A stretch of 64,000 nucleotides of DNA, from assembly GCF_000003815.2 (NCBI RefSeq), contig NC_049980.1:19759743-19823742 (forward strand), written 5' to 3'. Below, one piece after another: positions 25,560-52,254 of this stretch (position 1 is the first letter of the stretch; the number at the start of each line of letters is the position of its first letter). A model generated the notes under the pieces. That model was not told the DNA's origin and made no database searches. It was given only the letters and a program-made list of their open reading frames with translations. This DNA is from Branchiostoma floridae (lineage: Eukaryota; Chordata; Leptocardii; Amphioxiformes; Branchiostomatidae). A program made the translations under genes and the position numbers.

Positions 25560-26154
25560 TAGCCTCCATAGCAGGCTCTCTATGGACTTTTTTGGCACTT
25601 TTGCTGGCCATTTCTTTTTGTACTGGGTCGCTGATTGCTGGCCTCTCCCATAGCCGTCCATTTTAGAGCCTGCATTTTTTCGGCGGTACAAAGTCATATT
25701 ATAAAACGATTAGCCATTCATCTGCCCTATTAACACATACGTTAGGAATAATTCAAAACTCCGTGAGAGGCAATTCGCAGGCTCCGCCCGAGCAAAGGCG
25801 TCGGACATACCGAAAGAACGTCGAACTGGTAAGTTTCACTTCTGTGTTTTTAAAAAGCAGTTTGACCCCGAAACCGTTAGAGAATTGTCGGGTCAGTGCA
25901 CACGGGGCGTGACAGCGCACTGTCCGCGTCCGGCGGAGATGCGTGCAGTTTATTAGCCATCCACGGCAGGCAGGGAATTTGCACCTCCTTGTTAATCGCC
26001 CTAATCGTTTTATAATATGACTTTGTACCGCCAAAAAAATGCAGGCTCTAAAATGGACGGCTATGAGAGAGGCCAGCAATCAGCGACCCAGTACAAAAAG
26101 AAATGGCCAGCAAAAGTGCCAAAAAAGTCCATAGAGAGCCTGCTATGGAGGCTA
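25560..26154. mobile_element. 595 bp long-TIR element with 9-bp target duplication (Mutator-like MITE)
   Basis: Arms of about 154 bp (25560-25713 and 26001-26154) are inverted and nearly identical, starting TAGCCTCCATAGCAGG. The 9-bp direct repeat ATTAAGTAC flanks it exactly at 25551-25559 and 26155-26163. Long TIRs with a 9-bp duplication are the mark of the Mutator (MULE) superfamily. The 287 bp interior has no transposase. Both arms contain the same small open frame as a by-product. It lies 60 bp beyond the COX5A stop codon, within the transcribed region if the downstream exon belongs to COX5A. Confidence 0.85.
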
Positions 26155-26213
26155 ATTAAGTACGTCTTTGTCACAATAAGTAGGAAATCACTACACACCT
26201 CCATAGTAGCCAT

Positions 26214-28337: not shown

Positions 28338-28793
28338 GGTGAGGTTTTTGTCTTTTTCCAGCAACTTTCAACAACCCAAAATGGCGACCCGGTAAAGACC
28401 GTCCCACAGTCCTTTGCGGGCGATCCGCCGACCCCAAATGTTACCTCGCAAAAAATCGCGGTGTTTCGTCTCCGAAACGAAAACAATATTTTACCTAGAG
28501 CAATGTCAAAATTCCCACTGATGCCAATAAGTATGTTTTTATGCTAAAAACTGAAAAATTGCTTAGCGATAGGATTTTGTCCTGTGCTCTCAAAATCAAT
28601 TTTGCAAAACAAATTTCTTTAAGTCACTTGATCAATTTTGACCAATCAAAACTTAGCACTTATCCAGCATGGATTTCGCGCCAAAATTACAATAGTTTCA
28701 AAGGAAGCTACTGTACATGTACGCCACTGCGATCTCAGCTCCGAGAAGTATTGAAGACACCTTGAGATTACCTTAAAGATAACGTACAGAGAA
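28338..28793. promoter_or_regulatory. divergent promoter interval between COX5A and the kelch gene
   Basis: The two start codons face away from each other across 456 bp, so both promoters must lie here. A YY1-like site (CCAAAATGGCGACC, about 28375-28388) sits close to the COX5A start, as is common for nuclear genes of respiratory subunits. No TATA box was noted. Confidence 0.6.
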
Positions 28794-31700
28794 ATGGGGA
28801 ACGAGGCGTCTTCACAGAATCTGGCATACGGAGAGCGTCTTCAGAACGACGTTTCTGTGGAATGGAAGCCTTCAGGACAGCCGAGCCCTTTTCCCGCCAG
28901 GGAGGGGCACTGCGCCTGTGGGGTGGGGGGCAAGCTGGTCGTCTTTGGAGGAGTCTTGGAGGGAGTTCAAGAGAGTAACGGGGTGATCAGCTATGACGTA
29001 GGTTAGTAAAGGTCATATGTGTCATTTTATCTAGATTTATAAATGATGTCAAAACTGGTATATGAGGCGAATGAAGTACGTCGTGTTTTCGCGCCAAGCC
29101 AGCCAAGCCGAGACCGCTATAAACAACAGAACAGAACCTAGGATGTATTTCATTGATTCAGATAAATTATTTTGTCTCTCTTCGACTTCAAGCAGCTAGC
29201 AGTAGTAGTTGGCAACTATTATGTGTCATGACTTGCACAGATTTTTCTGCTAAATTTGCCATTTGCCACTACATTTGTACTTCAATTTTTCCATTTAATG
29301 TTTCTTTCAATAAATTGTTAATGGACTTATTTGCAAGCAGAGTCTGGAAGGTGAATTACCATACACCAGTAGGTCACCCCTGTCTTCAGATGTGACATGG
29401 AGAGGAGGTAACGTTAATCTCATTCATTCATAATTGCTCTTTTGATGCAGACAAAGGCACCTGGAGCAGTGTGCAGGTGAAAGGTCAGCTGCCATGCCCT
29501 CGCTCCGCAGCTACAATGTCGGCTGTTGGGACCAAACTCTACCTGTTTGGAGGGCTGAGTCATGATGTGGGGTGGCTAGACGACTTATTTGTTCTTGACA
29601 CAGGTAAGTTCAGTTTGTTCCAGTGTGATCCGATTGGCTGGCTTTAATTTGTGGTATGCAAGTGATCAAGAGGTGAGTAACCCTGTCTGTGGATCATGTA
29701 GTCGTTATTTGTTAAAACTAATAAAAGCCTGGCTTTTGTTGATAACTCCACATGCACACTACTGGAATTACAGTCCTTTGAAGGTTTCGTTTCAAGCCTG
29801 CATGTTAAAAAATGCAAATAATGCACCAGACTTCTTGACAAGCACAGGGGTATGCAGTGGATAAAACCTGCTGATCTGGTCTCAGGCAGCTAGTCTAACT
29901 GTGCAGTAACAACTGAAAGCAAAGAAACAGAAAAGCATAATTGTTTTTTCCTAGCTGTCCAAGTTCTTCAAGTAATGTTTACTTGAATTCAACATATATT
30001 GTAATTTACAAAATTACAGAAACCTGGTCATGGAATGAAGTGACTGACACACAAGGTCCTGCCCCAAGTCCCAGAGATAAGGTAGCTTCAGCCACCATTG
30101 GCAACAAGGTCTACTTCTTTGGTGGCTTTGGCCCCAAGGATGGGTGGGACACTGAGGAGTCCACCATGAGTGAAGATGAGGAGGAGGAAGAGGATGTGGG
30201 TCAGGGGGCCAAGTTCACTTGGTATGATGACCTCTACATCTTTGACACAGGTGGGTGAGGCTAGACTAAATGAGCTATACATTTGAAAATGTTTAATGAC
30301 GAATTATAAGTCCTTATCTAATTTCTATCCAGTAGTCTAGTACCTCTTTAGTTTTAGAGCAGAAATTGTGGGTTAGCAACTGGTCTGGACAGAAAGACAG
30401 TTGTTTTTATTGAGATGATGAGGATTGAACCTATTGGTTGCCAACCTTTCAGATACAAACACATGGGAAAACCCTGAACCTATTAAGCTGGGGGCACCCA
30501 CACCAAGAGCAGCCCATGCTTTGTGTGCTATGGGCAAAAAGCTGGTGGTCTTTGGAGGAAGAGACAGAGAGGCAAGAAAGAATGATCTGTATATTCTAGA
30601 TACAGGTGAGCAGAAAGATTATTATGCTTTGAAAAGTTTCAGAATTAAGGTAAAAGCTCTTGATAGATTTGTGTGAAAATAAGATTTGTGCTTCAAAAGG
30701 AAGAATGTTTCAAAATTTTGTTTTTTGGTCCCTAACTTTCTCATATTGAATTCGAAGCACGACTTTGCAATGACATAGGGAACTTGTTTGTGCATACCAT
30801 GGCAGTAAACATGATATGTACAGACATGTTTGACCTTCACCTCACATTTCCACCTATTTTGTGGCTTTTTATTTTCCAGAGACCATGAAGTGGCAGCAGT
30901 GTAAAGTCAGCGGTCAGCAGCCAGAGCCACGTTCCTTCCACACGGCCACAGCAGTCGGTCACCGGGTGGTCATCACAGGGGGAAGGGGTCTCCAAGACCA
31001 GCACTTTGCAGACTTCAACATCTTTGACACAAGTGTGTGAAGTCTTTTATGTGTATCGTTGCATGAGATCCTTAAATAGTTCATGAGGTTGCTACACAAG
31101 TGGAAACAGTTCATATTGTGCAACAGAAAGTATTCACGTGTCAACAATTTGATAGTCTTGCTACCTTCGTCAGAAAATCACTTGTCATTGACCATCAGAA
31201 GGGAGATATTGAATAAGCTTAGTCACATTTAGGATCATGGTCCTCTCACTGCAGCACCACCTAGGAGTACATTGTATAAACAGTTGTTATTGTCAAAGTT
31301 GTTCACAACTTCATGTATCTCACACATGTAGATGCACACTTTACAGCACAGGGCATAAGATTAGCAACCCTTTTTGATAAGTCTACAGTGTTAAAGATAT
31401 CAAGAAATGCTTTGTGTTAATAAGGTTCTGTTTGCCAGATAATACTTTCATTATGTTGTCCAAGTTAAAAAGACTGATGATATCAATATTATTAATAGTA
31501 ATTTATGTATTTCTGATAGAAATTTGTGTCTTGTTGTTTATCAAAATATTGCATATCCATGATCAAGCAGCTGGATGTAGTGATCATTCTTTGCCATTAT
31601 TCCTGAAGTAACCCTGTTTTCTCCTTGTGTTCAGAAACTAAAGAATGGTTGCAGCCAGCGGTACATGGAACCAAACCTGCTCCACGTGGCATGCACACAG

Positions 31701-34700
31701 CCACGGTGGTGGCAGACCAGTTTGTTCTGTTTGGAGGGTCGTCAGATGTAGATCCGGAGACCATGCAGTGTCAAAAGCGATATGCAGACCTCTTCTGCGT
31801 GCCAACAGGTTTGTAATTTGTTTACATTATGCTTACATTTGTAATTTGATACTTGAATGAGAATGAAATATAGGGCTCAAAATCCCCTTTTCTGCAAACG
31901 TGCTTCAAGTAACATTCAGAGTACATGCACCAATCAAATTTTACCTACAACACTCATTTTGTGCTATTTCGTTGAGTATGAAAATATTGTAAAGATGTTA
32001 CTGTTTGTTTTGTTAAAGCAAGGAGCTTTTATCAGGAGGAGAGAGTATGGAGTTACCCGCCCGCTGTGCGCCTTTGTTTGGCCCGTTAAATCCCGCAGCG
32101 CCGGCTTTGTTTACTGCCCTGCGCGGCGCCCGTCTGATCTGATGTTCGTAGCGCCGGTTGGCGCGGTTTCTATGCTAATGAGCCACGCGATTACGTCATA
32201 GCCCTCGAGCCAGCCCGAAGCCCGATCGGCAAGAGGCGAAGTGGGTCAGGTTTCCGACGATTCCCTTATTTGGAAAACTCGGCAGGCATGTGACTACGTC
32301 ATCTTGCGGTAGAGGGCACAATGGCGGACAGTTTGATATGTTTCTCTTCGCCGTACAACAAACATGGGCCAGTTTAGGCCTATTTTCGCGGGTCGAGGTC
32401 TGTTTTCTTGCGATAGAATTATGAATTTTCACATGTATTTTCAGATGGCTACTAAAAAAATATGACGTTTTTCTTCATTTAGCTGATATTTTTTCGTAAC
32501 TGTTGATGATGTGCTCGGTAAAATGGCGTGTTCACTGTTGGTCGAACCTTGCTCATTTTTGTCGAACCACCCGTGTTTTTAGAGGATACATCGGGCCTGG
32601 AATAAGGTGAAGGTAAGGCGGGAGAGCATAGTTTTCATGGTTTTCGTTACGATCGGGTTTTCGTATATAATGCCTTGAGTTCTCCAGGCATAATTTTGAA
32701 CTTTGTATTTGTATCGATTTATGAAATATATCTGTTGCATACTTAAAAAAAACTTGGTTCCTGTGATCATTGAGTCAGGTTTTTCACAGTCATCATTAAT
32801 TGTAGGAATATTACCAGTTTTTTTCGTAGACTTTGCCTCAGACAATTTTGCCTTTAGGCTTAGCCCATACCCGAGCGGCGGCGCTGTCCGGTCGCCGTAT
32901 GGCTTTGAAATTTCACCCTCAGTCAGAGAGAATATTGCCGCCGCTGTATGTATTCCCAAGGAGCTTGGTATTCCGAAGTTACTCTTCTGTTCAACATCGT
33001 CGACAAAATCGCAAAAATCAGATCGCTACACACAATGTTTGTATCCCCAGGCCGCCCCACCATGAAAATGACCACAAAACAAAGGGAAAACAAAAGCTTG
33101 CGTGGGTGAAATGTATGCAGATGCGGGGTTTTGACACGTGGGTGTTAATAAAATTTTGTCACCCGCTACGAACATACGAACAATGGAAACTAATTCGTAC
33201 TCTCTCCTACTGATAAAAGCTCCTTGGTTTAAGCAAGGCAACTTTGGGTCACTACTGGTTTGTGTCACTGCACTGATAGGTTTTAGGAGCCAATGCAGGT
33301 TGATATCAGAATACCTGCACAACTCCAATTTTACCTGCTTATGCAGGTGATATTTGTAGCCCTGCTGAAATAGCAAAAATTCATTTACATTTGACCATCT
33401 GAATTATCTCACTACAATCTACATATATCAATATGAGTCATGTTAGGCAACATCATATTTGCCTCCAGGTCTCATTTCATAAAATTCAGGGCTCTCTCCA
33501 GGACCCATCCCTCTGTATCCAAAGAAAATTTCAACCTATCAATTAAAGAAATAGAACTTAATGACTTAATGAAATTGTTGGGAATATATTTTCATTAGCT
33601 TTTAATGACTGATTTAACAACAAAAGCATGCTTGGAACTCAAACTAAGAATGGGACAAAAAAATTCAAAGTCACTTTATTGTGATTTTAAAGATATGACT
33701 TGATTACAATATGCTGTGTTCCTTTCCAAAATACTGTACCTTGTTGGAATACAAGTAATAAAATGTTAGTACGAATATAAAAGTGGAACAAAACAATAAA
33801 AGACAAGTTTTCTGAGGCTTCATTACTTTTTTCAGGAAATTTATTATAAATTTTTTATCAGAATAACCTCACAATAACAAGTTGCCATGTGTACTGAAAA
33901 ATACTACCTCAATTTGCAGCAATTTTGATTGCATCAGATTTTGAAAAAACATGATGTCACCATTAATTATCCCTGTTATTGGTGTTACCTACCCCATGGG
34001 GATTGCCTCGTTAGCGCAACGTCCTGTGCATAAATGTTTGATGAAGAAGTAAAACAGGAGAGCCTCATTAGTTATGCACAGCTGTGGCTGCTGATAAGCC
34101 TCCTGATTATAACAATGCTTTCATCAATTAGCCTGGGTACCATCCTCTGTAGTTACTGCTGGCTCAATCTTTTCGCTTGCCAGGCTAACATTCAGTGGAT
34201 CCCTGTTGTGTGTTTTCACAATGATTTAAGCTTAGAATGTCACACCAATCTATCAGCAATACACAATGCACTGGAGATAAGCTTCATGCAGCTGTCTGTT
34301 ACTACAAGCAACCTCCTTGCTACAAGACACCTTTCATAGATTCAAGGTTATATTATCGGTACTACGGTAGCATCCTTGATAGATTATTATTAATATATGC
34401 CATTGTCGTGCCAACGTACATGATTTCAAAGTCGTTGATGCCATATTTTCCGATATGGATTTTCATTATAATATAAATGTACCTTTATTTTTCTCAAGGT
34501 TTTTTTAAACTCCTTGATTTTTCTATATGGGATTGTGTGGTATTTTGCTATTTTTGGCTATTATCTGCAACCTGTTTTTCCAAGTTGCCGCCATTGTCTT
34601 TGTCCATAACCTGATATTAAGCTACCAAGTCTCTATGTTCCGCCAGGTTTTTAACCTCCCAGGTTCGTCTCTGCAAACTTGGCAGGTATGATAGGGCAAG

Positions 34701-37401
34701 GTTATTTAAAAATCTCCTTGGTAGTACATGTACTATGATACATCCCTTTGGTACTTGGTTGCACAGTGCACTTGAAGATGATGCAAACATGGAAAAGTAC
34801 AGGCAGTCTAAAATGTCCTGGAGTGACCTAATTTTCAAACCAGAATGTATCTTGGGTAACTTATGGAAAAATACCAATGTCATCACACCCTTTCCCCAAA
34901 TGGACCGTGCCTATATGTAGATTTGAGCTGAACCAAATTAATTAAGGAGATTATGCTTATTGTCTTAAGGAATGATGCAAGATTTTACAATCAAAATTGC
35001 TGACGTTCTATGTGCATATGTTTTGAGACACTAATTTGTTTGAAAAACATACAAGCTTTAAAAAGTTTGCACACATCCACGAGAATTGTGGTCCCCAAAC
35101 CCCCTCCATTGTTAGCCAGTTGGTACAGCCCACCAGACGTTGTCACTGCCCCTGCAGAGTTCACCTCAGCATATGCAAATCCAGCCTGACACAGAGCAGT
35201 GCCAAATCACCAGCTCCTGCATCCATATCCCCTCGATTTGCCTTGACTCAACTCCATTCAACATGGTTTTACCAACTACAGTGGAGAAGTTGCCAGTGAA
35301 AGGTAGATTGTGCTTTCCTTTGTTGTGTTCAGCTTCCTCTTGTGGAACAAAGAGATCTTTGGGCAGGGGAGATGGACAGCTTTTGTTGTGTTCGAATGGG
35401 TGTCACAGTGCCTTACACTGGGGGAAGTAAACAACAGGGCAACATTTGATTACTGGTAATCAATTTAGTGGAAGGACATCATGGAAAACTACTTTTAGCT
35501 GGGAGGAACATTCTGATGATGTATTATGGTCTCTATTTATATTTTGTCTGAAGATTTGACCTACAAAATTTATGTAGGACAGCTTCAGGCTTGGTGCCAG
35601 GACTGGTGATGGTTCAGATTGAGAATATGATTTTACATGGCCCCACCTTTTCTGCTGACATGTCTATGATCTGTACACTTTTGGGTGCTTAGCTTGGCTG
35701 ATAGCTGAATGAATTATGTTTCTGCATACTCAGTGAGTGGAAAGCAAATAGGCCCAGACTATGTTGACACTGGTTTACAAGGGTAGGCCAATTCATATAC
35801 TGAGTCATACATGATTTTCTTATATCCATATGTGCGAGGTATTCTGTCAATGACTCCCAATGCAGGTTGATGTATAGTATAGTGTCAGCACATCAAGGCC
35901 ATAATTTGTCCCTGTAAAATATCCTTGATCTGCGCCAACCATCTACAGACCAAAGATACATTTTATATTGAAGAAAATCAGCTGATATACAAGAAGAAGC
36001 ATACTACTACTAGTATTGTAGATTTCCTTTATTTTTGCAGTTGGAGGGTTAAAGGATGTTTTCATGTTATTCAAGCTTGCTGTAAGTGTTGAAACAATTC
36101 TGTAATACAATGGTAGTACAAAAATGGAACCACATATTCAGTGTCAAGATGTCGCATTGGAGAATTCACCATGAAAACAAAAGTAATGTCTTCTAAAGGT
36201 AGCCCATCTAATCTTTATGCAGATTGCAGGATAATCCTATTTGTTGTCAGCTAACATTCTAATGCAAACACTTTCCAATCATCTATCAGAACAATGACTT
36301 GACTTGTGTACAGTGTAGTGTGAATTTTTCTTTGCCAATTATCATAATTGTTTCTCAAACAATTATCCAACAGTAACAGCATGTGTCCAGCTGCTTCCAC
36401 ATGCATTGTCTTTTGGTTGTGTATCTCAGGTTATAAATTTGATCATTGATTGTTGTCCCAGTGCTGCCTTTCCCCCTATTTATTAGACATCACTCAAGAG
36501 TCCAGATTCTAGAAGTTTGCTTGGTTAGAATAGGAAAAAGTTCAGGACACAAAATTGATGAAAAATTTATTTTTGTAAGCCCCGTCCTCATGTAGTATAA
36601 ACATACTAGTAAATCAGAGGTGTGAATGACGCACACAAACATTTCCATGAGGTCACCCGACCAAATTAGCCATGAGATGTCAATACGGAGTGGAAGGTTT
36701 GTAATCTGACACTGTAATCAGGGTCTTGTGCATGACAAGAGTCACTGAGTGGATTAGGTTTACATTACAAGAACTCATATTTGCCAAGTCTGTGTGGAGC
36801 TCAATTTAGAATAAATTGTTCAGTCGTATCTTTCTCTGTTAATCCCATAGTCCCACCTACTTGTCAAAACATAATTATGCAGGACAAAAATGTAGAGATT
36901 CAACCAACATGCAGCCATGCATGTGCACATTAACTGATAGACTGATACGTAACTGATCAACACTGAAAGTGAGATTTAAAGCTCTAAACCACACCAAATA
37001 TCAAGTACAACTGGATATGATTTTGGAAATGGTCAAACATTTCAGGCAGAATCCACAAATCTTTCATCAGTGACACTAAAAGGGCCCTTTCCGGAGTCAT
37101 GTCCAGCTGCTTGAGTAATTACTATTTGGCATATCTTATTACACTCACTCTCCTCTCCGGGATGTCTAACCTTCATTGACGTATACAGCTCTAAACCATT
37201 TGTCTATTTTACACAGAGGAGGTTCTCAGTGGGAAGTCTATCCAGGTGACAGTGGAGGAGAACAAGGAGAATGCCCCTGCCACCACTGCCCCACCCCAGG
37301 ACGACCCCAGCCAGCCGCCCAAGGCTCCCACATGTCCTGACCAGCCCAGAAAGCCGCGCTCCTCCAGCTGGGAGGAAGGGGAGGTCCCTGGGATGGTATA
37401 G
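28794..37401 (+). CDS. kelch-repeat protein, form with first terminal exon
   Basis: A beta-propeller protein, 418 residues in this form. Exons are 28794-29001, 29451-29603, 30020-30250, 30453-30605, 30880-31032, 31635-31808 and 37217-37401. Each internal exon encodes about one kelch blade, with paired glycines (VVFGG, YLFGG, YFFGG, VVFGG, VITGG, VLFGG) followed by DDLF, DDLY or NDLY and a closing Asp-Thr. Three internal exons are exactly 153 bp and all internal junctions are phase 1. Blade 3 has an acidic insert (SEDEEEEEDVG). The start MGNEAS fits an N-myristoylation signal (Gly2, Ser6), suggesting membrane attachment. No BTB or F-box is visible. The tail is Pro/Lys/Glu-rich, looks disordered and ends GEVPGMV. 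AATAAA signals follow at 38050 and 38952. I cannot place it confidently with a named orthologue; KLHDC- or RABEPK-like proteins are nearest in architecture. Confidence 0.85.
32020..33225. mobile_element. 1.2 kb TIR element in a kelch-gene intron
   Basis: The ends are inverted copies of AAGGAGCTTTTATCAG, extending imperfectly through AGGAGAGAGTA. The flanks TGTTAAAGC and GGTTTAAGC are an imperfect 9-bp direct repeat (7 of 9). The left part (about 32050-32240) is GC-rich and unlike the host intron. No transposase was recognised, so it is probably non-autonomous. A single end-like copy occurs at 8304-8321. Confidence 0.65.
33226..37216. other. kelch-gene intron, no further gene
   Basis: AT-rich sequence with small open frames that show no domains. 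It contains the 61-bp element at 34128-34188. A stretch near 34610-34930 has a repeat-like look, but no family could be named. Confidence 0.4.
34128..34188. repeat. 61 bp miniature element with 9-bp inverted ends
   Basis: It begins TTAGCCTGG and ends CCAGGCTAA, perfect 9-bp inverted ends. The inside (CCTCTGTAGT, CTGGCTCAATC) matches the copy at 27163-27211. Confidence 0.6.
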
Positions 37402-39638
37402 GTGTGGTTTAGTGGAAGCAGTGCTGATTGTTAGGGTGGGAGGGGGAACTTGGAATTCTGTCCGTGGATCACAGTAAAACAGGTGCCAAGTAGAACTGCC
37501 AAGCATTTCCAAGGACTGTTGCCAAAAAAATTGGAGCTGTCAGAGGCATACACGATACACAGAAATGCTGGGCTGATGTCAAGCTTAATCAACTCCAGAA
37601 CTTTTTTCCATGTAGCAGTACTGTACAGTTTGTGTATATCACTATATATTTGGAACAGGTCTGCACATTCATACCTTTTCATGGGATAGAGAAATATTTT
37701 GAAGTACCAAACACCACCAATTTTGTAAGATTGATAAATGCTGCAGCTTGTTCATGTCCTGTATCTCAGTTCATGGCACAGACTGTGTGGACATGTTTAC
37801 CTCCAGGGTCTAGATTTCCATGATCCCTGCTTGAGAATTAACCAATCAACTAGCCAGTCATTGATCGGTCTCTGTGACAGATGTTTATCTATTTATCGTA
37901 CTGTAACAAGGAAGGATGCTGCTGAAGTCAGCTGTATCCAGAAGTGCTTCCTGCAGTTTAGGAGAATACAAACATTGAGGCTACTCTAACTAGATAAGAT
38001 GTACTTCACTTGATTTTATTTGTTAAGTTGTTATTGTTACCCACAGTACAATAAATGAAAGAGAGATAGTTTTCAGAGGGCAAAATGATAGATATATAAC
38101 TGATCATGTAAGATTCTGGTAAATAATACAGAAAAGACTGGGTAACAAATTCCAGAAAGCTGGAGCAGTAGGATTGTTAGACGAGGCTTTCTTCAAAGTG
38201 TCTTACATGAACAGTGATATACTTTGTTTCCCTGCCACAGTAATGTCAGTATAACAACAGATGTTCTGTGTCTTGGATAACATTATGCTTTAGCTCATAA
38301 GAACTCTCCTGTCTTCATTCATTCTTTTTTGTGTGTGAAAAGATGCCAGCTTGAATACTGATGATTTTTAAGTCTTGTTGGGAGAAGGAACCATTGTGAC
38401 ATGTGGAAAAGTAATCTGTGAGTCAGTACTGTGACTGTTGGGCATTGCTTGAATGGGCATGCCAGTAGAGCCTCCATGTGAAAAGTGCAAGAGCAGGGCT
38501 TGAAATATTAACATGCAATGTTCATGAACAAATCTGAGATTTAAGAAAATGAATAAAGATACTTGTAAGTTGGCAAGCCAAAAGAATACAGAGTAGATAC
38601 TACTACAATGTATTATGTATATTTACATATACAGTGTATTTATGTGTATGTATAACAAATATTGCTGAAAATGGAAACAAGAGTCAAGTATTTTGAGCCC
38701 TGTTCGGTTGTGCATGTTAAAACTAAATAGTGATGTCTTTGACTTTCCCAAGATTTTTGTCATGTTGTGAGGTATTTGTACCCTATGAGTACATACCAGT
38801 AATGCCTTTTTTTTAGAATGATTGGATTCAATGATTTACAACCTTGTGTATTATCCGAGGTTCAGTTAACAAAGATGATGATCATGTCTCTGCTCTTAGT
38901 ACTAATTGTGCATTCCAGAGTGTAAAATGTGTCTTAAAGTGAAGATGTGAAAATAAAGACAGGACTACTGTGTTATTTTGAAGCTAGTGAAGTTTTTATA
39001 GTCACATGCATAGTACATGTACATTGTACTAGATATTGTTAAACATGTTAGAATTAGATGCTTGTAGATTCACTGGTGGAACATTATACATGAATATAAA
39101 ACAGTCACCTAATTATGAACACATCAAACTTGTAGGACTGAGTTCCTGGGTAAAACAACCAATATTGAGGCTGTACATGTGGCGGCATTGCAGCCTGCCA
39201 GTTGATGAATGACAACTTCATGATGTACCTTATAATAAGGCCATATTGATTTGATATTGTGGCCTTTGAAAACGTAACATAAAATGCTGTCTTAGCTTTC
39301 AAAAGCATACAAATTAAAGCTCAACGTTGCAACATGAAAATGTTTCAGTTCATCTTAAAAAGACACCATTTCCATGGAACCGGGCAGATTTGTCGGTGGC
39401 ATAAGGAGTGCCCATTAGCCAACCTGGGTGGCCAATGAACACTCCTGTCCCGGCTACACGCCCTTGCCAGCGTATGATACATGTACTATCTATGCCTGTG
39501 GGATCTGTTGGAGATTACCAACATGACCATTCCTTGCTTGTGATTTTTTTTTTTGTCTAGCATATGAAAATTCAGTTAGTAACAGCCACCAACATAGGCA
39601 CTGGAACAATGTACACAAAATAAAACGGACTTTGTTTT

Positions 39639-39785
39639 CATTATAGAAATTTCTAAACTTTCTTTCCAACACTGAATTAATACAGGGACTTACCCTAAAT
39701 TTTCGGTCAAACTCCGTCGACCTTGTTAGGGTAAGTCCCTGTATCAATTCAGTGTTGGAAAGAAAGTTTAGAAATTTCTATAATG
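39639..39785. repeat. 147 bp near-perfect hairpin (60-bp arms)
   Basis: Arms 39639-39698 and 39726-39785 are inverted copies with one mismatch in 60, around a 27-nt loop. A 13-bp direct repeat, GGACTTTGTTTTC, overlaps the left edge (39627-39639) and recurs at 39818-39830. It is about 130 bp past the tetraspanin stop. It may be a foldback transposon, a hairpin in the tetraspanin 3' UTR, or an assembly artefact. Confidence 0.8.
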
Positions 39786-39915
39786 TCTTCTACCAACACA
39801 GATGAACTTTCATGCTAGGACTTTGTTTTCTTTCAGGTTCCTTGTTGTTTCGGTCACAGAAATAATCTCTTGGAACTGCACTCGCGACCAACATCTGCTT
39901 GGATTTCATTCCAGT

Positions 39916-40743
39916 TCAGACGACAGTTTGTTCTGTGCGTTCATCGCTTTGTCGGTTGTCAGGTGGGTCTGCCACATATACGCCAACCTTACTCTCCTGA
40001 TGGAGCCGAAACGCTTCACATAAAAACATCAGGAAAGATCCTACCTGCACCACGATGGCTACTGCATTCACTATTCTGACGACATTGAACTGATTCTGTA
40101 AGAATCCAAAGTACGCTCCCAGGCAAGGTCTTGTTGTCCAGAGATTGCCTTCTGGTGTTTTGTAACAGTCCCTGTCATTGGTCGTGCACCTGCAAGGTTC
40201 TGGGATGGAGTTGTTTGTATTTGAGTTGTTCCCAACATTTCCATCATCCCAATCGGTGAAGTTCCATATCCCACAGCAATCCAGCGAGGTTTGCAGCAAT
40301 GTCCACTCCGTGTTCGGAGCCCTGTTAACATTACGTTTGACGGCTTGTAAAGTTCTGTTGAGTTCAATACCCAGTTCTCCCTTTGTAATATTTTCACGAG
40401 CTGTGCAGGTTGCGGCTACTGCAAATTCTAGCATGACAATCACGACTAAAAGAATTCCAATCTCTCTCAAAGTGACTCCCTGCCTGAACCATTTGCGATC
40501 CCAGTGTGCGTGTACTATTATTGCAGCTAGAATCACTGTCAAAGCACCCCCAACACAGGTTAGAACGGCTTCGGTTTTAGCAATGCGTCCAGGAGTCAGA
40601 ACCTCCGCCCAAGACATTTGAAAAATCATCCAAGCTCCCGTTATAACCAGTGCTGCGCCCGGTAGTAACAGGACGACGACGAAAGCAATCAGAACTATTT
40701 GAGCATACGCTGCCCGTTTTTTCAATCGCTGACCTTTATCCAT
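39916..40743 (-). CDS. tetraspanin, single coding exon
   Basis: A four-pass membrane protein of 275 residues that would organise protein partners in plasma or vesicle membranes. Hydrophobic segments lie at about 14-40, 57-80, 92-113 and 226-250. The large extracellular loop between the third and fourth has the family hallmark CCG (LDCCGIWNFTDW) plus four further cysteines in PCRC, DC and PC, and several N-glycosylation sequons. The C-terminus EQTVV fits a class I PDZ-binding motif. It has no introns, unusual for the family and suggestive of a retrocopy or long-standing intron loss. It lies inside the kelch gene on the opposite strand. A TATA-like sequence (TATATAT, about 40792-40786) is about 45 bp before the ATG. 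The specific subfamily was not identified. Confidence 0.88.
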   Translation of the reverse strand: MDKGQRLKKRAAYAQIVLIAFVVVLLLPGAALVITGAWMIFQMSWAEVLTPGRIAKTEAVLTCVGGALTVILAAIIVHAHWDRKWFRQGVTLREIGILLVVIVMLEFAVAATCTARENITKGELGIELNRTLQAVKRNVNRAPNTEWTLLQTSLDCCGIWNFTDWDDGNVGNNSNTNNSIPEPCRCTTNDRDCYKTPEGNLWTTRPCLGAYFGFLQNQFNVVRIVNAVAIVVQVGSFLMFLCEAFRLHQESKVGVYVADPPDNRQSDERTEQTVV

Positions 40744-40785
40744 CGTAGCGCTGTTTCTGCCAAGTCCACAGAAGTGCAGTCACCC

Positions 40786-40792
40786 ATATATA
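40786..40792 (-). promoter_or_regulatory. TATA-like box of the tetraspanin gene
   Basis: On the minus strand, TTGTATATATGGG lies about 45 bp upstream of the start codon, which would give a very short 5' UTR. Position and sequence fit a TATA box, but no transcript start is known. Confidence 0.4.
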
Positions 40793-40977
40793 CAAGGTGC
40801 GTTGACAATCAATTCTACGACTGTCATCTGCAATAAAAAAAGGACACTGTCAGGTATTTTAACACTTCAAAATAACCGACATGCAATATAACGGGTTTGC
40901 GCTCAATTCTGACAGTTGCTAAGCTAAGTAAATTTGAATTGACACATACAATTACAGTCACGTAATTATGGCATCAT

Positions 40978-40996
40978 TATATATATATATATATAT
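40978..40996. repeat. (TA)n microsatellite
   Basis: An uninterrupted TA dinucleotide run about 19 bp long, upstream of the tetraspanin gene. Confidence 0.9.
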
Positions 40997-41444
40997 GAAT
41001 TTGTGAATTTTGATAACGCAATGCAAATGATACTTGAGCCATTACCCAATCAGGTTGTCTACCTGTGATGTTCTACCCCCTCGAACACACTCTATTATCA
41101 TCCAGTCCAAATCACTCATTGAACCGTGAACCGCTACCTAGCAACTGGCTCTCCCTATCTGTTACTGTGTGTTCAAGTGCTTTGGAGGTGGCCATGCAGA
41201 AATGGCAACAGGCAAATGGCTTCACAGGTGTGCGATCCGAAACGCAAACGCAAACTACACCTAAGCCCAGGCTTACAGCAACGCTGCTGTAAGAATGGAT
41301 GCAAATAACGGTTAAATATATATATAAGGCATATAAGTTAGTTGTAGTTCATTGTCAGTACTTGCTTAACAAGATTACATGTACATGTACAAGCGACTTC
41401 AAGCTGTCTGTGTCGCCGCGCATCATTTTCAATCAGTGCAAGTA

Positions 41445-42105
41445 CAGGGGTGCCTAAGCATTTGCACGAACCCTATGAAATTCGTACCGTATATTATGTG
41501 ATACACACGAATCACTATGCGAAAACGCACGAACATTATGAAATTCGCACGAATCACTATGCAAAAACGCACGAATATTATGAAATTCGCACGAATCACT
41601 ATGTGATTCACACGAACCTTATGATTTGCACGATCCTTATGCAAAAACGGCGGCCGGGAGGAGGCATGATTTTGAGCGTTTTTACCCGTGATATTTATAT
41701 TTCAAGGCATGGAATGGACATTTACCGTCGCAAAGATGTATTTGATAGCCTGTGAGCTACTGTTGTGCTTCATTTTCGGCTTGTTACATCGTATTTTCAA
41801 GGACGTTATATCAGGTATTAAACGTCCTTGGTATTTTCCGAAGCCGCCATCTTGAAAATCCCGCTCCGTCTGTCACGTGACCCCGGCAGTGGTTGCGCAA
41901 TTTCAATTTCGCATAAGGATCGTGCAAATCTCATAAGGTTCGTGTGAATCACATAGTGATTCGTGCGAATTTCATAATATTCGTGCGTTTTTGCATAGTG
42001 ATTCGTGCGAATTTCATAATATTCGTGCGTTTTCGCATAGTGATTCATGTGTATCACATAATATTCGAATTTCATAGGGTTCGTGCAAATGCTTAGGCAC
42101 CCCTG
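41445..42105. mobile_element. 661 bp foldback element with internally repeated arms
   Basis: Arms of about 200 bp (41445-41646 and about 41910-42105) are inverted and almost identical, starting CAGGGGTGCCTAAGCATT. The 5-bp direct repeat AAGTA flanks the element (41440-41444, 42106-42110). Each arm holds two to three tandem copies of a roughly 40-bp unit containing CGAATCACTATG and GCACGAATATTATGAAATTC. Open frames in both arms encode the same Tyr/His/Thr-rich string and are by-products of the repeat. The interior is short and more GC-rich. The ends look hAT-like, but the duplication is 5 bp rather than 8. Confidence 0.85.
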
Positions 42106-45006
42106 AAGTATAACCCAACTTTCTCCGTAAACACCGTCACTGTATCGTTGGAAAACGTATGAGACACTGTCGTTTCAAGTATTTCACAGACGACAAGTAA
42201 AAATGTCACGTACAACTCTCGTTAATAATTCAGGTCAGCGGCCCACTGTGTCCTTTGTACTGCGTCCCGCGGCGTCGGAGAACTACTGAGCATGAAATAA
42301 ACACGAGAAAAGCATTATTGTCGGTCTCTTGAGTATGTGATTGTATGACAAGCGCTATTAATATACATCTTTAAAATCTAAGATGTATCGTAAACATGTT
42401 TATTTTTCAACGTTATCTCTAACGTTAATTCAATGTATGAAATATCTATGTACAGACTTAAATGCGACATATAGTAAGTTGTAGATGTGACAGATGAATC
42501 CTGTGAAATCTTTAGAAATCGTCAGACTTTAAGGCTATTGTATATGTTGCTAGACTATACAGTTCCATCTACCTTATGTAACGTTACCATATACTCATTC
42601 AACGTTAAACCTACAAATACGACTACAGTAATATACCTACCGTCGCATGACGAGCCTGCATAAACTGCCGCATCCAGCCAGTCAGTGGCTGTGCCACGGT
42701 CACGAAATTTATTGTATCAGTTTCATTAGAAACATTATCTTCAAGTGGTGACAGACTGTAGCATTGTAGTGGAACGTAGTGGATCACTAGCTGGGAAGAC
42801 GGTACAGGCCAGGTGAACACGGAAATGCAGGTCCGCAGTTAGGACAACACTGCACAACCTTTCACCCCGGTTAATAAACACCGTCTCTTGACATGCGCAC
42901 TTGAGCGTAAGTACACCAATGAGTATCGATCCCACAGTGTTTGTCATTCAATCCTTGTTGTTTGCCGACTTAATGACTGGGGAGGTTTTTTGTAGAAGCT
43001 CGTGCTCACTCAATTTGAGGTAGATGCAACTCCAAAAAATTTGTTATGCATGCAATTGTTAAAACAACTTTTCTTGGCTGCAGCAGTCTTTCGATGCAAT
43101 AATGTTAATTGCAAAGGAAGATAACGTTAGTTCTTTTTCTTTCCTAGTAACACCGATCATGGTGATAGCTTTTTTGTTACTCCTGTGTTTTTCCTGTATG
43201 TAGGTATAACGTTAGGTGACACCTGTCAGCCGTCCTGCATCCGCACAATCCATAGGTGTAGTTTCTTTCCGAGTCAATATTTATAGCCATGTGTCTCACC
43301 TGTCTGACCTATCAGTGAGGTTATTCGCGGTATGTTTTCTCACGCGTTAGCGTACCTGCACTTTCCATACATGAAAAGTTTGCCACCTGCATGTTTTGCA
43401 AAATGTTTATCGAAACAGTCCTTCCACGCAGTGGAAAATTTACAACGGTTATACTTAAGAATTTTTTTCAGATGGGGTCATTTTCTCATGACGTCTATCA
43501 CGTTAGCCGCCCACTCTCCACAAATGTAAGGCGTATCACATGCATATTTTCTCATGACGTCTAGATAGGGCAGAGCGTCCTGCATTATTCGCACAGTTTC
43601 ACATGCGTTAACAGTTCCTAACTAGTGTGATACCAGGCCGCTTTAAGTATTTCTTTTATGTTTTTCAGAATGTTACGTCACCAGAAATCATAGTCTCAGA
43701 CCTGACATGCCCGGTGGAACGGCTTGACAAAATTGAATGATGATTTGAGTTACAGTGTGCATTTTGCAACGCACCTGTGTTGATTTAGCATACCTGTGCT
43801 TGGTCACGTAGACACGGGTCAGAACTAGTCTGTCCACGTGACGTATTGGAACCTTCCATCCAGCAAACGACAAGATAAAGGGGATTTAAGTGGCTACATT
43901 TTACTGTTATCGTATCAACACATGAACCATTTCCAAAGAAATTATACAAACGTAATGAAATGTAAATGCCTTTTTACACTTTGTCGCAGTAAGAGACAGA
44001 ATTTCTATACCTTTGGCAAGTACATCGCCCCCAATGCTAAAGTTATATGTTGTCGTCCAAGGTCATGATGTGACGTCATCGTCTAGAGTTCACTCGGAGT
44101 CGATTCTACATACAAGAGTGAAGCAAACGTGGCCTGCCTTATCCTGCCATCATATATCAGCCTGATTTCTGTTGTCTGTCTCAAGGACATCTGCATTGTG
44201 GAAAAATGGGTAACTATCACAATGTTCGCTGAACTAGGTCACGTTACTGTTAGCCATTGTGGCCACCGAGAGATTAGGGGGCGCCTTAACTTTTGTTACT
44301 AGTATTCAGTCACTGACCATACATATTGGATGTATAGAGCGTACTGGTACATGTGCATTGAAAATGAGCAACATACGTTACTTGTAATCCTCTGGTAACT
44401 ACTGAATGTGTAACCGTGATTACATATACTCAGTGTTGATCCTTAGTTCGCAATAGAAAAAACACTTACCCCTTTGCCAGCTCTCGCAATTTCCTAATTT
44501 TGTAGTGTGCTAAAATTTTGTACGGAAAGTTCCTCAAATGAAATGCAATGATATAATAATGCAAACATAAGCAACACCGGGTCAGCGGTGGTAAACGTTA
44601 CATCCTAGATTGATATGGTAAAGAGACGCCATCAGAAACGTTCCTAGTTTAGTACTGTTTCTGTGGATCCGTTTCGTCTGGACTTTGGTATAACGTTATA
44701 ACATAAACATTAGATCGATAAGCTCAAAATGTAAATAGATTGAGTCTTACACGATACAAGTGAGGTCTCGACGAGGTTGAAGGTATATCCGACAGGTCAT
44801 TGAACTCACCCTTTTCTTTGTTTTGGACTTAGTGGTATTGTTGACATTCACAACAATGCACAGGACTTTTCATTTGGGCATGTAGTCGAGTCCCCATTTT
44901 GGCCGACTACACTTGATTACCTCTACTCTTGCCTGTGTAGAGTCTAAGACATTAAACGGTAGATAAACAGACGAATATATTTGCATTGTTTTTTTTTCCT
45001 TTGCAG
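42106..45006. other. kelch-gene intron, no further gene
   Basis: No domain-bearing ORF was seen. Five copies of the palindrome TAACGTTA cluster at 42420-44698. Confidence 0.4.
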
Positions 45007-45194
45007 ATCAGAGTAAGAAACCGTCCGACAAGAAACCAGAGACATCTGAGAAGAAAGACGCTGGTGTTCAAGACCCCGGTCCCCAGGGTCACCAGGAGAT
45101 GATCCACCTGCCAGACCACCACAAAGCTGATGTCGAACATCACGTGACTGATGAGGGGGATTGGGTCTGCGATGACATTCCGGGCATGATGTAA
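45007..45194 (+). CDS. second alternative terminal exon of the kelch gene
   Basis: The acceptor TTTCCTTTGCAG precedes 188 bp in the same phase as the first terminal exon, ending at a TAA (45192-45194). It encodes about 62 residues: a Lys/Glu-rich start (DQSKKPSDKKPETSEKK), a His/Asp-rich middle, and the end DDIPGMM. AATAAA is at 45772-45777. Spliced to exon 6 it gives a 419-residue protein. The only similarity to the other two tails is the last five residues. Confirmation needs transcript data, but shared phase, length and ending make chance unlikely. Confidence 0.7.
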
Positions 45195-48100
45195 CCATGG
45201 CAACCGACTGCAAGACATTTGCTGCTTTTTGATTGGTTGGCTAATTAGTCGCTATGATCTAATTAGTCCCTTTCTTGAACTCGAGTCTGGTACATGTACA
45301 TTGTACAGTACATGTAATCCCTTTGTTGGAAGATATCATATGGACATTTGAAAAGTGTGATAATTTGATATATGCGAGTCGCCAAGGCTTTAGGAGAAGA
45401 ACTTAGTTTAAGCCTGGTATCCAAAGCTATCATAGCTATCAAGTCACGTCTGTCCTCTCCGCAAATGAGAGGCTTGTAGAAGGTATCACTAACGTAACGA
45501 CACTTACTGTTGCAATAGAAGTGCGCGTTTTCGAATTCAAACGATGAAAAAAAATGGTACCTTTCGAAACAAGTATAAATGAATAATTATAACCGTCAAA
45601 AGGGCAAGTGTACTTTTTTGATTAGCATTTCATTTGGAAATTGGGGCAAAATGTTGAAGCAGACGTATACGTTTTTTTCTTAAATCATCAAAATTGTAAC
45701 GTCAGGTATTAAATGATCAGTCTTATAGCTTCACACACTTCTGTCTCTTGCGTGGTGTCAATTTTCAGTGAAATAAACCATGGTTTCATAAACAATTGTT
45801 CTGCAGTTTGACAGTATGGGAGCCAGAAATATTGTCCAGAAGGTGGAGAAATACAGTTCACCTTTTGATTTATTTGATTTGTGGACCCGGATGTGCTAGC
45901 TACAGGTTGGGCGATGTTTGCAAGCACGTGACGTCATAAATACCATGCATACTAGTTAACTAACGCTGGAAGACACCGACCTGGAAATGTGCGTGCATAT
46001 GTCGTAACTATGTGCCTGTAGTTACAAATTCAAAATTGTAGAGGAGTACAGTAGGGTAGAGTACTTCGGTTGGATATCATATGAGTCTCCTACATTTTGT
46101 TTGAATTCACCTGACCTGGCAATGTCCAGGTTTAACTACCTACCATGCTGGACATCAATGTCACGCTTTGCAAATTGAGTGACGTCAAAACTAATACCGT
46201 GACGAGGTCACCACATGTGATATTGCTCACGTAGCACTCAACGCGAGAGTTGGCCAATAAAGGGATTGTGCACGCACGTGTCTAGCTATGATGTGCCTAT
46301 TCGGACCGCCATTTGAGCATTGAAGTCGCCAGGTATAATCAATTATGATAACATATATGCAGATTTATAAGTCGATCTGACTCTTCAGAACACTTTCTTG
46401 AGGAACTTTTTTTTATAATTGCCCAACTCTGCTTGAACATATGGAATCGCTCCCAGGAGAACGATTCTCTAAACAACTGTACTTTGTTTTCAGGCTTCCA
46501 ATGAAATGCCCCGGTATCTAGTCCGGGTAGGCCTTGTGACCGTGCGGGTGGAACTACTGGGCCACTGAATTCTACTGTTCACGTGTTCGTAAGGCGGTTA
46601 AGTCCTAAATGTATTCACCCCTCTTATATCATGCATGTTTCGAACTTATTATATAAAGATTACTTAATGAAGATTACCGAAGGCATGTTTATATCGATAA
46701 ATAGAGAGTTTAATAAACAAACACATGGATGATTGGAAACAGAAAGGAGTACACAGAGTGTGTGCACCCGTCCCTAGTTGATAAACAACTTTTCTTACCT
46801 AGGTACAAGTAGTCCATTACGAATCATGCCCACCGATTTCACTTTATGTTCAATTAATTTAGCGGTGTGATGACGAGTTATGCACATTCAAAACGGCTGA
46901 TTACTGATAAAAGAATAAAGTAAAGTACAGGGGTTAACAATAGTTGCAGACAGAAAGATAACATTGTTTAGTCAATGTCGTGAGGGACAGATCAGCGTTG
47001 TTTGCGAAACATGTCGGAGTAACCTTCTTATACTCCCCAAGCAGAGGTTCGGTTCCAGCAGCTGGTACAGCTTGGCGCGTTTTAGGCCTCAGGTTTGTCG
47101 GGCTTTCTACTTCGTCTTGTTCAAAGACAACTTCTCTGTGTTTTCATGGATAAATTAAGACGTCTATCTGTCGCCGGGTCCCAAGTTGAGTTTAAAAAAA
47201 AACTGGCAGGCCCTACCTCCTAGTCTGGTATGAGGCAGTATTATTTGCTGAGAGGACAGAAGAGACTGGGGAGCATACCGTTGGATACCAGGCCGGCTAC
47301 CAGGGCCCGGCGGTACCCCCCGAAAGCCCGGTAGCCGCAGGGTGTCCCACGGGGCCGCGTAGTGATCACGCCCGAAAGTGCAGAAAAACAGCCCGTAAAC
47401 TATCCGGAGGGGCCCGTTTTGAAAATGGGTCAGTGGCATTAGCAGGCTCAAAGAGTCTGAATTTTCTGATGGCGCATATAGGTTCTATTGAATTTGTACT
47501 CGGTTCCTATTGCCCTTTACCGTCTATGTGTACGGGAAACAATGACAGGGTGAAACCGAGTGCAATAGTTGAACTGATATGCCATCAAAAACCCTATTGT
47601 GTTAAGAAGGCTAGTCCGGAGCGGCTTGGACCGTTAAACACACAAAGGATTTCTCCCAGCCTTAACTGTATTTAAACAGCGTTGACCCTAGGGTCACCAA
47701 CAGTCTGAAGTAGGCTGCTGAACAGAGTCAGCTACTGTGAGGTCAATCTGACATCATATAGCTCACCAAGGCAATTTCTACGGGTGTAATAAAATTGACG
47801 GAAGATGCCAGGTAGGTGTTTACGATCGTAACTATTTTTGCTGGAGTGCTTCTGAGCTTGTTTTGCCTGATGTTTGTTGTATAGATTTCTGTAGCTGCCA
47901 TATGGCAAAGAGTTCATATCATTGCTCCATATGGAATATGTGTTATGTACAAAGTAAGGGTGGCGAAAGTGTCTGCCCGACGAGTGAAAGCTCCATATGT
48001 GATTTGTACTTAAATCGTTGAGATTTTTGTTTTGATTAGTACAGTATGCTGAAAAGTAAGCCTTTTTAAAAAGGGTGCCATGTTGGTATGTGCGACTGAC

Positions 48101-49130
48101 AAATTATCCCAGAACTATCATGCGAAGTGTATATCATTGTTCCGTCGTTGTTAGTTTCTGAACATTAAAACAGCGACAATTGTAAACGATTTATGCTCTT
48201 GGAGCTCAAGACGTGACGAGACGTCTGCCCTGTTCCCATAGAGGCCCTAGAGGGTACTAGAGGCCCCCTCGTGCAAACATACGAAACAACAGACGACACA
48301 AATGGGCTTCTGAGGTCGGGTTACGGGCGTGCTGAATGGTGACATCGTGACTGCATAGGTTCCCACTAGAAGCTTGTGCACGGATACGGGTGACCAAGGA
48401 GGTTACTAATCTCCAAGCAGAACTTGCGGCGGTTTAAGACAGTAACATAAGTTGGGGAAGGAATTTAACCGGCAGAAACCACCGCGGTGAAAGAAAATAC
48501 AACTAGTCTGTTGGACCGTTATAAGTGTCAGTACGTCGTATTTTATGGTGTGAGTAGAAAATAAGAGAAAATCGTTCCAGGGATATCAAGGAGGTTATGT
48601 GACCTCCATGGGGATATGTATTCGATGGAAAAACACCTAGTGTATGAGCAACTGCAAATTAAGTGCACAAGTAGATTGGGAGATACGTTTTATCGCGTTG
48701 TGAAAACATGTGCCGCTTCGCCACATTAGTTATTGCTGATGCACCCTGACGCCTGTGACCTCAGTTGACCCGGCCATGAACTTGGTCGTGATCACTGTCT
48801 GGACAAAAACTGGGCACAAGTGGTTCCTAGATCACTATATACATATAAAGTCTATTGAATCTTGTATAACTTAAGCGTCATTGAACGTTCAAGTAAAAAA
48901 TTGATTGAAGTAACAATGGTCGACTGTACTGTTTTTGTATGCTGTGAATGTCAAGCCTAATATATTACGATTTCAAGAGTTATATTGCCCCCACGTCTGG
49001 TCACGTAACGCATTGATTGCTCCACCCAGGTGAGTTAATGCCTGTTCAGCAAAGTGAGACATGATGCGTTCATGCTGTAACCCCAGTCAGACGTTTACTA
49101 GTATTTTTGTTTTATGTTAAATCTCGACAG
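45195..49130. other. kelch-gene intron, no further gene
   Basis: No domain-bearing ORF was seen. A GC-rich patch at about 47270-47380 with a minus-strand open frame (47451-47164) is repeat-like and not assigned. Confidence 0.35.
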
Positions 49131-49318
49131 AGCGACAAGAACAGCGAGCTGGCGGGTCAGGGACTGGCGATGAACCCAGACCTCATCCGTCAAGAACAAT
49201 GTCGTCATCCAACAACCGGTATCCAGTAGGACGCCGTCCCATAGCGGCCTCGTTCACGTCACAGAACGGGCCCAAGCGGTACGCAGGGCCGGCTGCAGAG
49301 GTTCCCGGCATGGTCTGA
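49131..49318 (+). CDS. third alternative terminal exon of the kelch gene
   Basis: The acceptor AATCTCGACAG precedes 188 bp in the same phase as the other two, ending at a TGA (49316-49318). It encodes about 62 residues: an Arg/Gly/Ser-rich basic tail (RYPVGRRPIAASFTSQ) that ends AAEVPGMV, matching the VPGMV of the first tail. Joined to exon 6 it gives 419 residues. Net charge differs from the second tail, which is acidic. Confidence 0.7.
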
Positions 49319-52254
49319 GGAGCTGAGAGTCTAAGACAGTTGTTTCACCCCTGCCCCAGCTTTCCTTGCTTTCCTACATCGACATGTAGATCTGATGTAA
49401 ATCTGATCGTCGTCTGAACCTAGCTGTTGACTGCAATCATGTCCGCATTTGTCAAGAGTTGTTTATTTCGTGCAGACATGCTGGCACTGACATGCAGTGT
49501 AGGCAAATGCATCATCAGTGAAAATTTGAATCACGCCACAAGTATGCTACACCATGTAACGTTATATACAAGAGTATGGGTTTGTCTCACGAATCTGGTT
49601 TTTACCATTACTTAATATTGTCTGATTAGGATTGAGCATCTATTTTTCGATCATTTGAATATAGCTATGCGTATACGTTTGCTTTGGTCGTGCTGTTGCC
49701 AGATTATTTCCTTTAACAGACAACAACATGGATACTGAAATCCTTATAACCTGCCAAGTATGTGCCCTGTCTGTATGTTGTTCAGACTTGTTGTAAACAG
49801 CTCAGCTGAAATATAGCAGCTGCTGTTCGCTGAATTCTATACTCGTTTGTGTGCCATGTAAATAGTTATTTGTATAAACCGATAAGTTACAATATAACCG
49901 AAATGTTAGAGTATAAAGTAGAACAAATCTCCAATATGAATGTCAGTACGAAAGACAAGATGTTATGTTATGTTAATGTGTTGGAGTGTTAAATATGCTT
50001 CTGGAATGGTTTCCTTTCAGACAAACGAAAAGCTGTATGTTCAATGGTCATCCAACTGGAGAAAATATCACAATGTTCAAGCATAACATTAAACTATAGA
50101 ACTTGCACCGCCTGTCTTACAGTTCAATAACTTGGCATTGAGTCATCGTCACCAATCACAGTCAAATCATTTTTTTACTAAACAAGGATGTAGACGCCGG
50201 AAGTTAGTTTACAGACACGATGATGTTCGTCCATCCAACGTCCTTGGTCCATCGGATGTCAGCCCAAAAAAAAAAAAAAAATCACCATGACCAAGAATGT
50301 TAAACCTTGTTTACCTCCTTGCCATGACAGAGACCCGATTGTACTTCTTCGGGTAATTTTTGAACACACCTTTATGCAGAGGTACGAAAACTGAAGCGGG
50401 TGACTACTGTGACTGTGACACAAAAGTTATTCGAATTGAAGAAGGCTGACAAGACAAAAGTACAAATATTTTCATCTAATCAACATAGCCAACAAATTTA
50501 CATGATGTGTATTTTTGACAGCGCAAGCAGACTTATTGTTAGTAGTAAAATATACAACTACTTACTGGTGGTTTTATTGCAACTAACGTTACCAACCTAA
50601 ATTTATGATAGGTAAAAGTGAACGAAAGGCTTTGAGGTGAGTTTGCCATTCATGAGTATGCGTTACGTGGTCGCCGTCATGCGTCATGCCGAAATCTGTG
50701 GAGAAGGTACCTCTGACAATACTACTAAAATCCGCTAGATGACGCGCGTGATTGGTGAAAACATGACATGACCTTTTGAACCGTCAACATCAGCATGAGG
50801 AGCTTGGCAAGAGGTAAGAAATAAGTCATGGTTGATATCTCTTTCTTTATAATCATCATTGTCGGGAGACACACAGTATCTTAATAGAATTTCTATTCGT
50901 GACTTATTCGCAAATTCTGACGATAGAAAGTTTTTAATCTAAAGTTATAAACGATAACTCGCGATCGTTGACAGATGGGGTGGGGGGCGTTCATCATCGT
51001 TTTACATATTCGATAGTCATTGGGATTATTGGAGAGGATTATGGGATGATCAGAAGAGGGTTTAGCCAGGACGAGGTGGTTGGATTTCAACCAAAGTCAA
51101 TCAAGTTAGCAACAGGTCACCTCCTTGTAACAATCAAATCTAACTTACTAGTTGACGTTATCGTTACAGTTGAAAGTAAACTTGCAGTGCTTTTGTATGT
51201 AGGTTATATTTTGGAAACGACACTCCCAATATATAATAGTAATAAGGAGTTTCATGTTTGTCACTATGCATGTGCAGCTAAATGTACAATGCTAATATAG
51301 CAAGGGTGAAGAAATTAATTTGCTAACATATAAATGAGGTCTTGTTTTGACAATACTTTATCCTAAAGAGGTTTGTACATATATAGACCATGTTAACCAT
51401 TTGCATGCAATGTCCAGATGCGTTTTGTTTTGTCTTTGGGTTCTTCACCTTCGATCCACAATGCATTTTGCTGCACATGTAACTTTACCTCTTTATAGTT
51501 CCAGTTCGGAATTTGTTTTGGGCGACGAGGTAGTGAAAATAAGACGTTATTCATAGGTGTCCCCCTTCGTTTCGGCACCAAATGTTTCGGCTACCGCTAT
51601 AGCAGTGTAACGTTATAATTTTTTGTATTTCTCAAAAAGTCTGTTCTTCGTAGCGTTTATTTATCTGTGGCACAGATTTTGCAATGCGGCCAACACATCC
51701 TGATATTAGTGCGCGGTAGCGGTAACGCGGTTTTGTCGCCTGATTTCCCAATTTATACATTCTATTTGTGTTGTGGGTGTCTTAGTGCCATCAGAGCTCG
51801 CGGAAAACGTATCCTGTAACTTTTCTTCCTCCCTTGGTATACAGAAAAAATCTTGACCTTCATTGCCATATTAGTCATTATCCCAGGAAAAATCCTTTTT
51901 TTTTTCATATAGCACTTTTCTGAGAGACAGTCAAATTGAGCCTGAATTGTTAAAAAAACCTGAACCGAGACCTTATATTGTAAACTTACTAGTATAGTTG
52001 TATGTCATTAAGTTGTGAGACACAGAGGTTACAAGTACTGACATCAAAAGATCTTCAGGCACTAAACAGACCAACCATATGATAACTATCAAGTTACAAG
52101 AGATAGAAACAAAACAAATGGTTTATGTGTATAACATATTTGTTACAGTTGACCCAGAAGCTTCACGTTCAACATCTAAAAACCAACATCTAGAAACCAA
52201 CAGTAACATCTATGTCAGCGCAGCAAGACTGTGAAAACAATATTTCATACCAAG
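49319..52254. other. interval between the kelch gene and LRRC28
   Basis: It should hold the 3' UTR of the longest kelch form and the LRRC28 promoter. An open frame at 50968-51300 lacks recognisable features. Three TAACGTTA copies are present (49557, 50584, 51608). A poly(A) run lies at about 50267-50281. Confidence 0.4.

Follow-up and report, generated by a model that had tools for sequence, protein, structure and literature searches.

Among the KLHDCX C-degron receptors, to which KLHDC2 and KLHDC1 belong, KLHDC2 binds the C-terminal carboxylate of its degron through R236, R241, and S269, according to two reports (PMC11470957; PMC11377542), and the second also describes contacts from Y163, W191, W270, and K147 to a ligand with a degron-like binding mode (PMC11377542). 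In a further report, the C-termini of KLHDC2 and KLHDC3 themselves (Gly-Ser and His-Gly, respectively) are described as hiding the pocket in tetramers, a case of degron mimicry, and the ends given as known for KLHDC2, KLHDC3, and KLHDC10 are Gly, together with Ala for KLHDC10 and the Gly-Ser that is KLHDC2's own end (PMC11568203). Here we describe a gene with a related propeller, termed the kelch gene below, in a 64 kb stretch of Branchiostoma floridae DNA (the window, G000:C2:19759743-19823742 of a 513 Mb genome; all positions not otherwise labeled refer to it). Its core encodes a six-bladed kelch propeller and is followed by three candidate last exons, tails A, B, and C, that differ along most of their length and share their final residues. 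We read this locus as an adaptor-less KLHDC2-type propeller with three alternative last exons and a self-docking end that mimics a degron, and we give this reading as a whole a probability of roughly 0.45.

Alternative last exons, which swap the C-terminal tail of a protein, are terminal exons of common entry phase lying behind a constant part. The three candidates here are all on the + strand, each after a CAG acceptor and each entered in phase 1: tail A (37217..37401; 185 bp, 61 amino acids, ending EVPGMV), tail B (45007..45194; 188 bp, 62 amino acids, ending DIPGMM), and tail C (49131..49318; 188 bp, 62 amino acids, ending EVPGMV). Joined to exons 1–6, they give proteins of 418, 419, and 419 amino acids with no internal stops, and the locus has several terminal exons, all entered in the same phase and each with its own stop codon, as alternative last exons do. 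The coordinates and frames bear out an earlier sequence-only reading of this DNA, which had described three terminal exons of these lengths, phase, and endings over a 12 kb span. The same reading held that the tails differ over most of their length, and this too was borne out: once the last seven residues (GEVPGMV in A, DDIPGMM in B, and AEVPGMV in C) were removed, no pair of tails aligned above shuffled sequences (p 0.55, 0.62, and 0.97). Ungapped identity between the B and C linkers is 0.25, a random level, and a measure of linker similarity gave a faint excess for A and B (p 0.015, uncorrected) and none for A and C or B and C; a Trp stands at the tenth residue from the end in tails A and B, where C has Gly. 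The tails also differ in charge, and they are probably disordered linkers of 61–62 residues, with no related solved structures found up to E 10. The DNA of tail A and that of tail B each occur once in the genome.

The shared ending is difficult to attribute to chance. A six-frame scan of the window for [VI]PG[MLIV]x followed by a stop returned the three tails and a single junk frame on the opposite strand. The corresponding DNA class, GANRTNCCNGGNATGRTNTRR, occurs at nine places in the 513 Mb genome (one in a backwards control), of which three are tails A, B, and C, two read TGG and thus lack a stop, and four lie elsewhere and carry a stop (counted by eye). The frames preceding these four other stop matches are open for 6 to 22 residues, a length that does not strictly exclude very short exons at the four background places. 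At the background rate, about 5e-5 further matches would be expected over the 11.9 kb from A to C, and two were observed; in first-order Markov sequence of local composition, the ending was matched 0 times in 86.9 Mb. Because the ending occurs with a true stop seven times in 513 Mb, three of them here, and never in the Markov sequence, chance is an unlikely explanation. Between the endings of A and C, four of the five degenerate codons differ synonymously (counted by eye), and the stop codons of the three tails are all different (TAG, TAA, and TGA). Synonymous sites and stops that differ, linkers that cannot be aligned, and an ending that is kept together form the pattern expected under selection on the protein end, and we consider it highly probable that the C-terminal ending is under such selection. 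The sequence-only reading had proposed that the tails look like alternative last exons in tandem whose end motif is selected, and, so far as sequence can indicate, this proposal best accounts for what the three exons have in common: phase, length, strand, composition, and ending.

The core of the kelch gene consists of six + strand exons within 28794-31808, with phase 1 at every junction. Exon 1 (28794..29001), recognized by its frame and splice sites, begins with the ATG, encodes the N-terminus MGNEASS, and contributes most of blade 1 together with the final strand of blade 6 (blades assigned by eye). Kelch repeats follow in exon 2 (29451..29603; phase 1), exon 3 (30020..30250; with an acidic loop), exon 4 (30453..30605), and exon 5 (30880..31032), and the last repeat is encoded in exon 6 (31635..31808), which has a phase 1 donor; read-through into the intron behind it meets a stop after two residues. 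By eye, blade 6 is closed by the N-terminal strand, which leaves the tail free. Comparison of the propeller core with the genome recovered the six exons of the gene itself; the remaining matches were five weak kelch places (E 1.5e-6 or worse), so that no close second copy was found, and no relatives of the core were confirmed in the prokaryote and viral collections.

A search of the PDB matched the propeller to human KLHDC2 (E 2e-38) over one stretch of about 270 residues, with 92 of the 261 aligned residues identical (35%), the longest single stretch among the alignments listed. A dynein heavy chain with kelch repeats scored slightly better (4e-39), but as six short pieces. The Pfam family PF24681 (KLHDC2/KLHL20/DRC7 kelch domain) is recognized with E 6e-81, although this is a broad model, with 151 matches among the kelch genes of the genome. 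The seven KLHDC2 pocket residues named above map to K141, F157, and W188 in exon 3 (KLHDC2 K147, Y163, and W191), R234 and R239 in exon 4 (R236 and R241), and S267 and F268 in exon 5 (S269 and W270). Five of the seven are identical and the other two are changes from another aromatic residue to Phe; KLHDC2 numbering was inferred from chain offsets, by which all seven expected letters matched. The Arg/Ser/Arg triad that holds the carboxylate is complete (R234, S267, and R239, for KLHDC2 R236, S269, and R241). The core and the KLHDC2 fragment both match a regular expression for the spacing of the triad; 25 other kelch loci from this genome, taken as single-exon frames at 23 distinct places, gave no match, 18 of the 25 having a blade pair that the expression could read. 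Five additional kelch loci (L041-L045), which appear by eye to be RABEPK-, HCF-, KLHDC3-, KLHDC4-, and LZTR1-like, lie outside all of these counts and outside the triad test.

A carboxylate anchor that is kept, together with one kind of end carried on three tethers, leads to the self-docking reading. One gene would encode a KLHDC2-type six-bladed propeller without an E3 (ubiquitin ligase) adaptor box and would choose among three last exons, each supplying a free C-terminal peptide, (D/E)(V/I)PGM(V/M), on a different linker. The end peptide would occupy the carboxylate pocket, either in cis or in a neighboring protomer, as in KLHDC2 and KLHDC3; occupancy of the pocket would then gate or assemble the protein, and the exchangeable linker would set strength, charge, or partner. 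Docking of the shared end in the propeller's own pocket, judged by analogy with these proteins, falls just short of an even chance. The sequence-only reading had offered the same idea as an inference, and it gains support here: over a long stretch KLHDC2 is the nearest solved kelch protein, its pocket residues are mostly kept, and the tails have no adaptor box. Against a literal analogy with KLHDC2, the known ends are Gly, Ala, or Gly-Ser rather than Val or Met.

That mismatch, between Val or Met ends and the Gly or small residues taken by the known pockets of the family, is the weak step of the reading, and it is one of several points that weigh against it. It is conjecture that the pocket may gain room for Val or Met through the two changes to Phe. 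Five identities among seven positions, at a mean identity of 35%, have a binomial chance of 0.06, so that the case for the pocket is carried by the triad, which is rare, and not by the count. At the position of KLHDC2 W321, which we take to be an eighth pocket-lining position, the kelch gene has Met. The acceptor of tail C has a lower pyrimidine content (0.60) than those of A (0.65) and B (0.85). Finally, an origin of the tails by tandem duplication is not borne out by the flanking DNA: a search for recent duplication around the tails, by blastn of regions of 3.4-4.5 kb, gave five short matches, none of which overlaps a tail exon. The kept end may stem from exon duplication or from convergence, with the near-equal lengths of the exons hinting at duplication.

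The strongest alternative also accepts the alternative last exons and makes their end a ligand for another protein, either one with a domain that binds ends or a C-degron-reading E3. We regard it as unlikely, though less so than the alternatives that follow. The position of the motif at the very end of tails that differ in charge would suit such a ligand, as would a terminal Val, which is common in PDZ ligands, although the Gly at position -2 lies outside the usual PDZ ligand classes. The preference of KLHDCX pockets for a terminal Gly or small residue, as given in PMC11568203, points the same way. Against an external partner, the gene's own carboxylate anchor would be left without a role for the tail, even if it could serve the ends of other proteins.

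Both self-docking and binding to another protein presuppose that the kelch gene uses all three last exons, which we consider quite probable. The tails have a guanine-cytosine (GC) content of 0.63 (A), 0.53 (B), and 0.61 (C), against flanks of 0.39-0.41 (200 bp upstream) and 0.40-0.47 (downstream). The share of the region's 188-bp windows that reach the GC of the tail is 0.2% for A, 5.0% for B, and 1.0% for C, so that B is just mildly raised. Among 11 phase-1 terminal-exon candidates listed mechanically for a good acceptor, A has the highest GC and B the second highest; tail C falls below the pyrimidine threshold and is therefore outside that list. The polyadenylation signals AATAAA or ATTAAA occur downstream of A first at 649 bp, of B at 514 and 578 bp, and of C at 770 and then 3313 bp, but with an AATAAA density of 0.64 per kb on the + strand, these signals do not decide whether a tail is used.

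It is improbable, in our view, that B and C are parts of other transcripts, such as small genes starting within the intron, with an end that arose by duplication of one exon and is unused by the kelch gene. The introns from exon 6 would be long (13.2 kb to B and 17.3 kb to C), with a tetraspanin open reading frame on the opposite strand in between, and an ATG exon of two codons at 47805-47811 (+), whose donor is in phase 1, could be spliced in frame to C, giving a product of 64 amino acids with the EVPGMV end. Mini exons of this kind are nonetheless expected by chance at 0.375 per kb on the + strand, and the stretch from A to B yielded none; the core search described above returned, beyond the exons of the gene itself, only the five weak places; and B and C match tail A in phase, length, and ending. 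Least probable is the use of tail A alone, with B and C as old exon copies that are no longer spliced: A is the closest to exon 6, but B and C retain open frames, acceptors, and the ending despite divergence elsewhere past recognition, and an unused copy would have no reason to retain its end.

The surroundings of the kelch gene include several other features. A COX5A gene on the - strand (26200-28345; Pfam E 1.8e-41, exons joined by eye) is arranged head to head with it, and the two start codons are about 0.45 kb apart, so that a promoter is possibly shared. The tetraspanin open reading frame, which is outside the system described here, occupies 39916..40743 on the - strand between tails A and B (Pfam PF00335, E 1.5e-22); use of tails B and C would make it a nested gene within the kelch gene. 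Past tail C, a leucine-rich-repeat gene (52250-55150, +; Pfam LRR_14 9.6e-18, one exon) forms the right boundary of the kelch gene. Four inverted repeats are present (25560-26154, 32013-33232, 39639-39785, and 41488-42067), with longest arms of 154, 35, 60, and 137 nt that are 94-99% complementary; these are probably terminal-inverted-repeat elements, and the second to fourth fall within the long introns that precede tails A and B. Two stretches of N, at 1028-1127 and 3275-4208, account for 1034 bases of the window.

The consensus for N-myristoylation is MGxxxS/T, and the MGNEASS start encoded by exon 1 fits this pattern, so that the modification is predicted; its first six residues, MGNEAS, are identical to the start of calcineurin B. 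That an N-myristate would tether the kelch protein to membranes is somewhat favored by this pattern. A more specific proposal, which we put forward tentatively and hold to be unlikely, is a membrane-tethered reader of C-terminal ends without a ligase adaptor, whose KLHDC2-type pocket would be gated by its own end on one of three splice-selected linkers, its role having shifted away from degradation and toward splice-tuned self-assembly or scaffolding. If the self-docking reading is true, kelch propellers also recognize C-terminal ends in settings other than the ubiquitin system, and a short end motif can be held fixed by alternative last exons while its tether changes. The three tails would then be a natural experiment on how linkers tune self-docking, and with the shared end, purifying selection could be tested sharply by comparing lancelet genomes.

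As for a ligase adaptor, KLHDC1/2 receptors have a BC box, which binds elongin B/C, and a cullin box. No match to the BC box pattern L...[CSA]...[AVILM] was found in tails A, B, and C, and a search of the introns from exon 6 to tail C for an overlooked exon with such a box gave only regular-expression matches on the + strand, in frames judged by eye to be junk. Searched with the KLHDC2 fragment, the genome gives as its best match a closer relative of KLHDC1/2 elsewhere, at G000:C1:8096450-8098921 (66% identity in an exon, E 4.8e-9), with exon 4 of the kelch gene second (55%, E 2.1e-7). The last exon of that other gene, ICLDTIVHHKDVLAPLCSMLPRE..., is BC-box-like by eye and ends in GVGA; its last-exon reading is ICLDTIVHHKDVLAPLCSMLPREL... 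The kelch gene thus encodes a KLHDC2-like propeller, is probably not the orthologue of KLHDC1/2, and on this evidence is not a cullin adaptor. A literature search returned no paper joining KLHDC2 and amphioxus, and PGMV was absent among the matches listed; for alternative last exons, kelch, and amphioxus, no title on such a gene appeared among the matches listed.

Compared with KLHDC2 and KLHDC1, the kelch gene has the same kind of propeller, including a blade-3 loop ending in Trp (W188, for W191), the same R-S-R carboxylate anchor, for which exons 4 and 5 code in this gene, and a similar length (418-419 residues, against KLHDC2 chains of 406 and 412). It is unlike them in having no BC box in its tails, in its MGNEASS N-terminus, and in its three candidate last exons, and its end is Val or Met rather than Gly. 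With the autoinhibition of KLHDC2 and KLHDC3 it would share the placement of a protein's own C-terminus in the carboxylate pocket; there, however, a tetramer regulates a ubiquitin ligase, whereas no ligase adaptor was found here. Alternative last exons usually change the end of a protein; those of the kelch gene retain the end and vary the linker.

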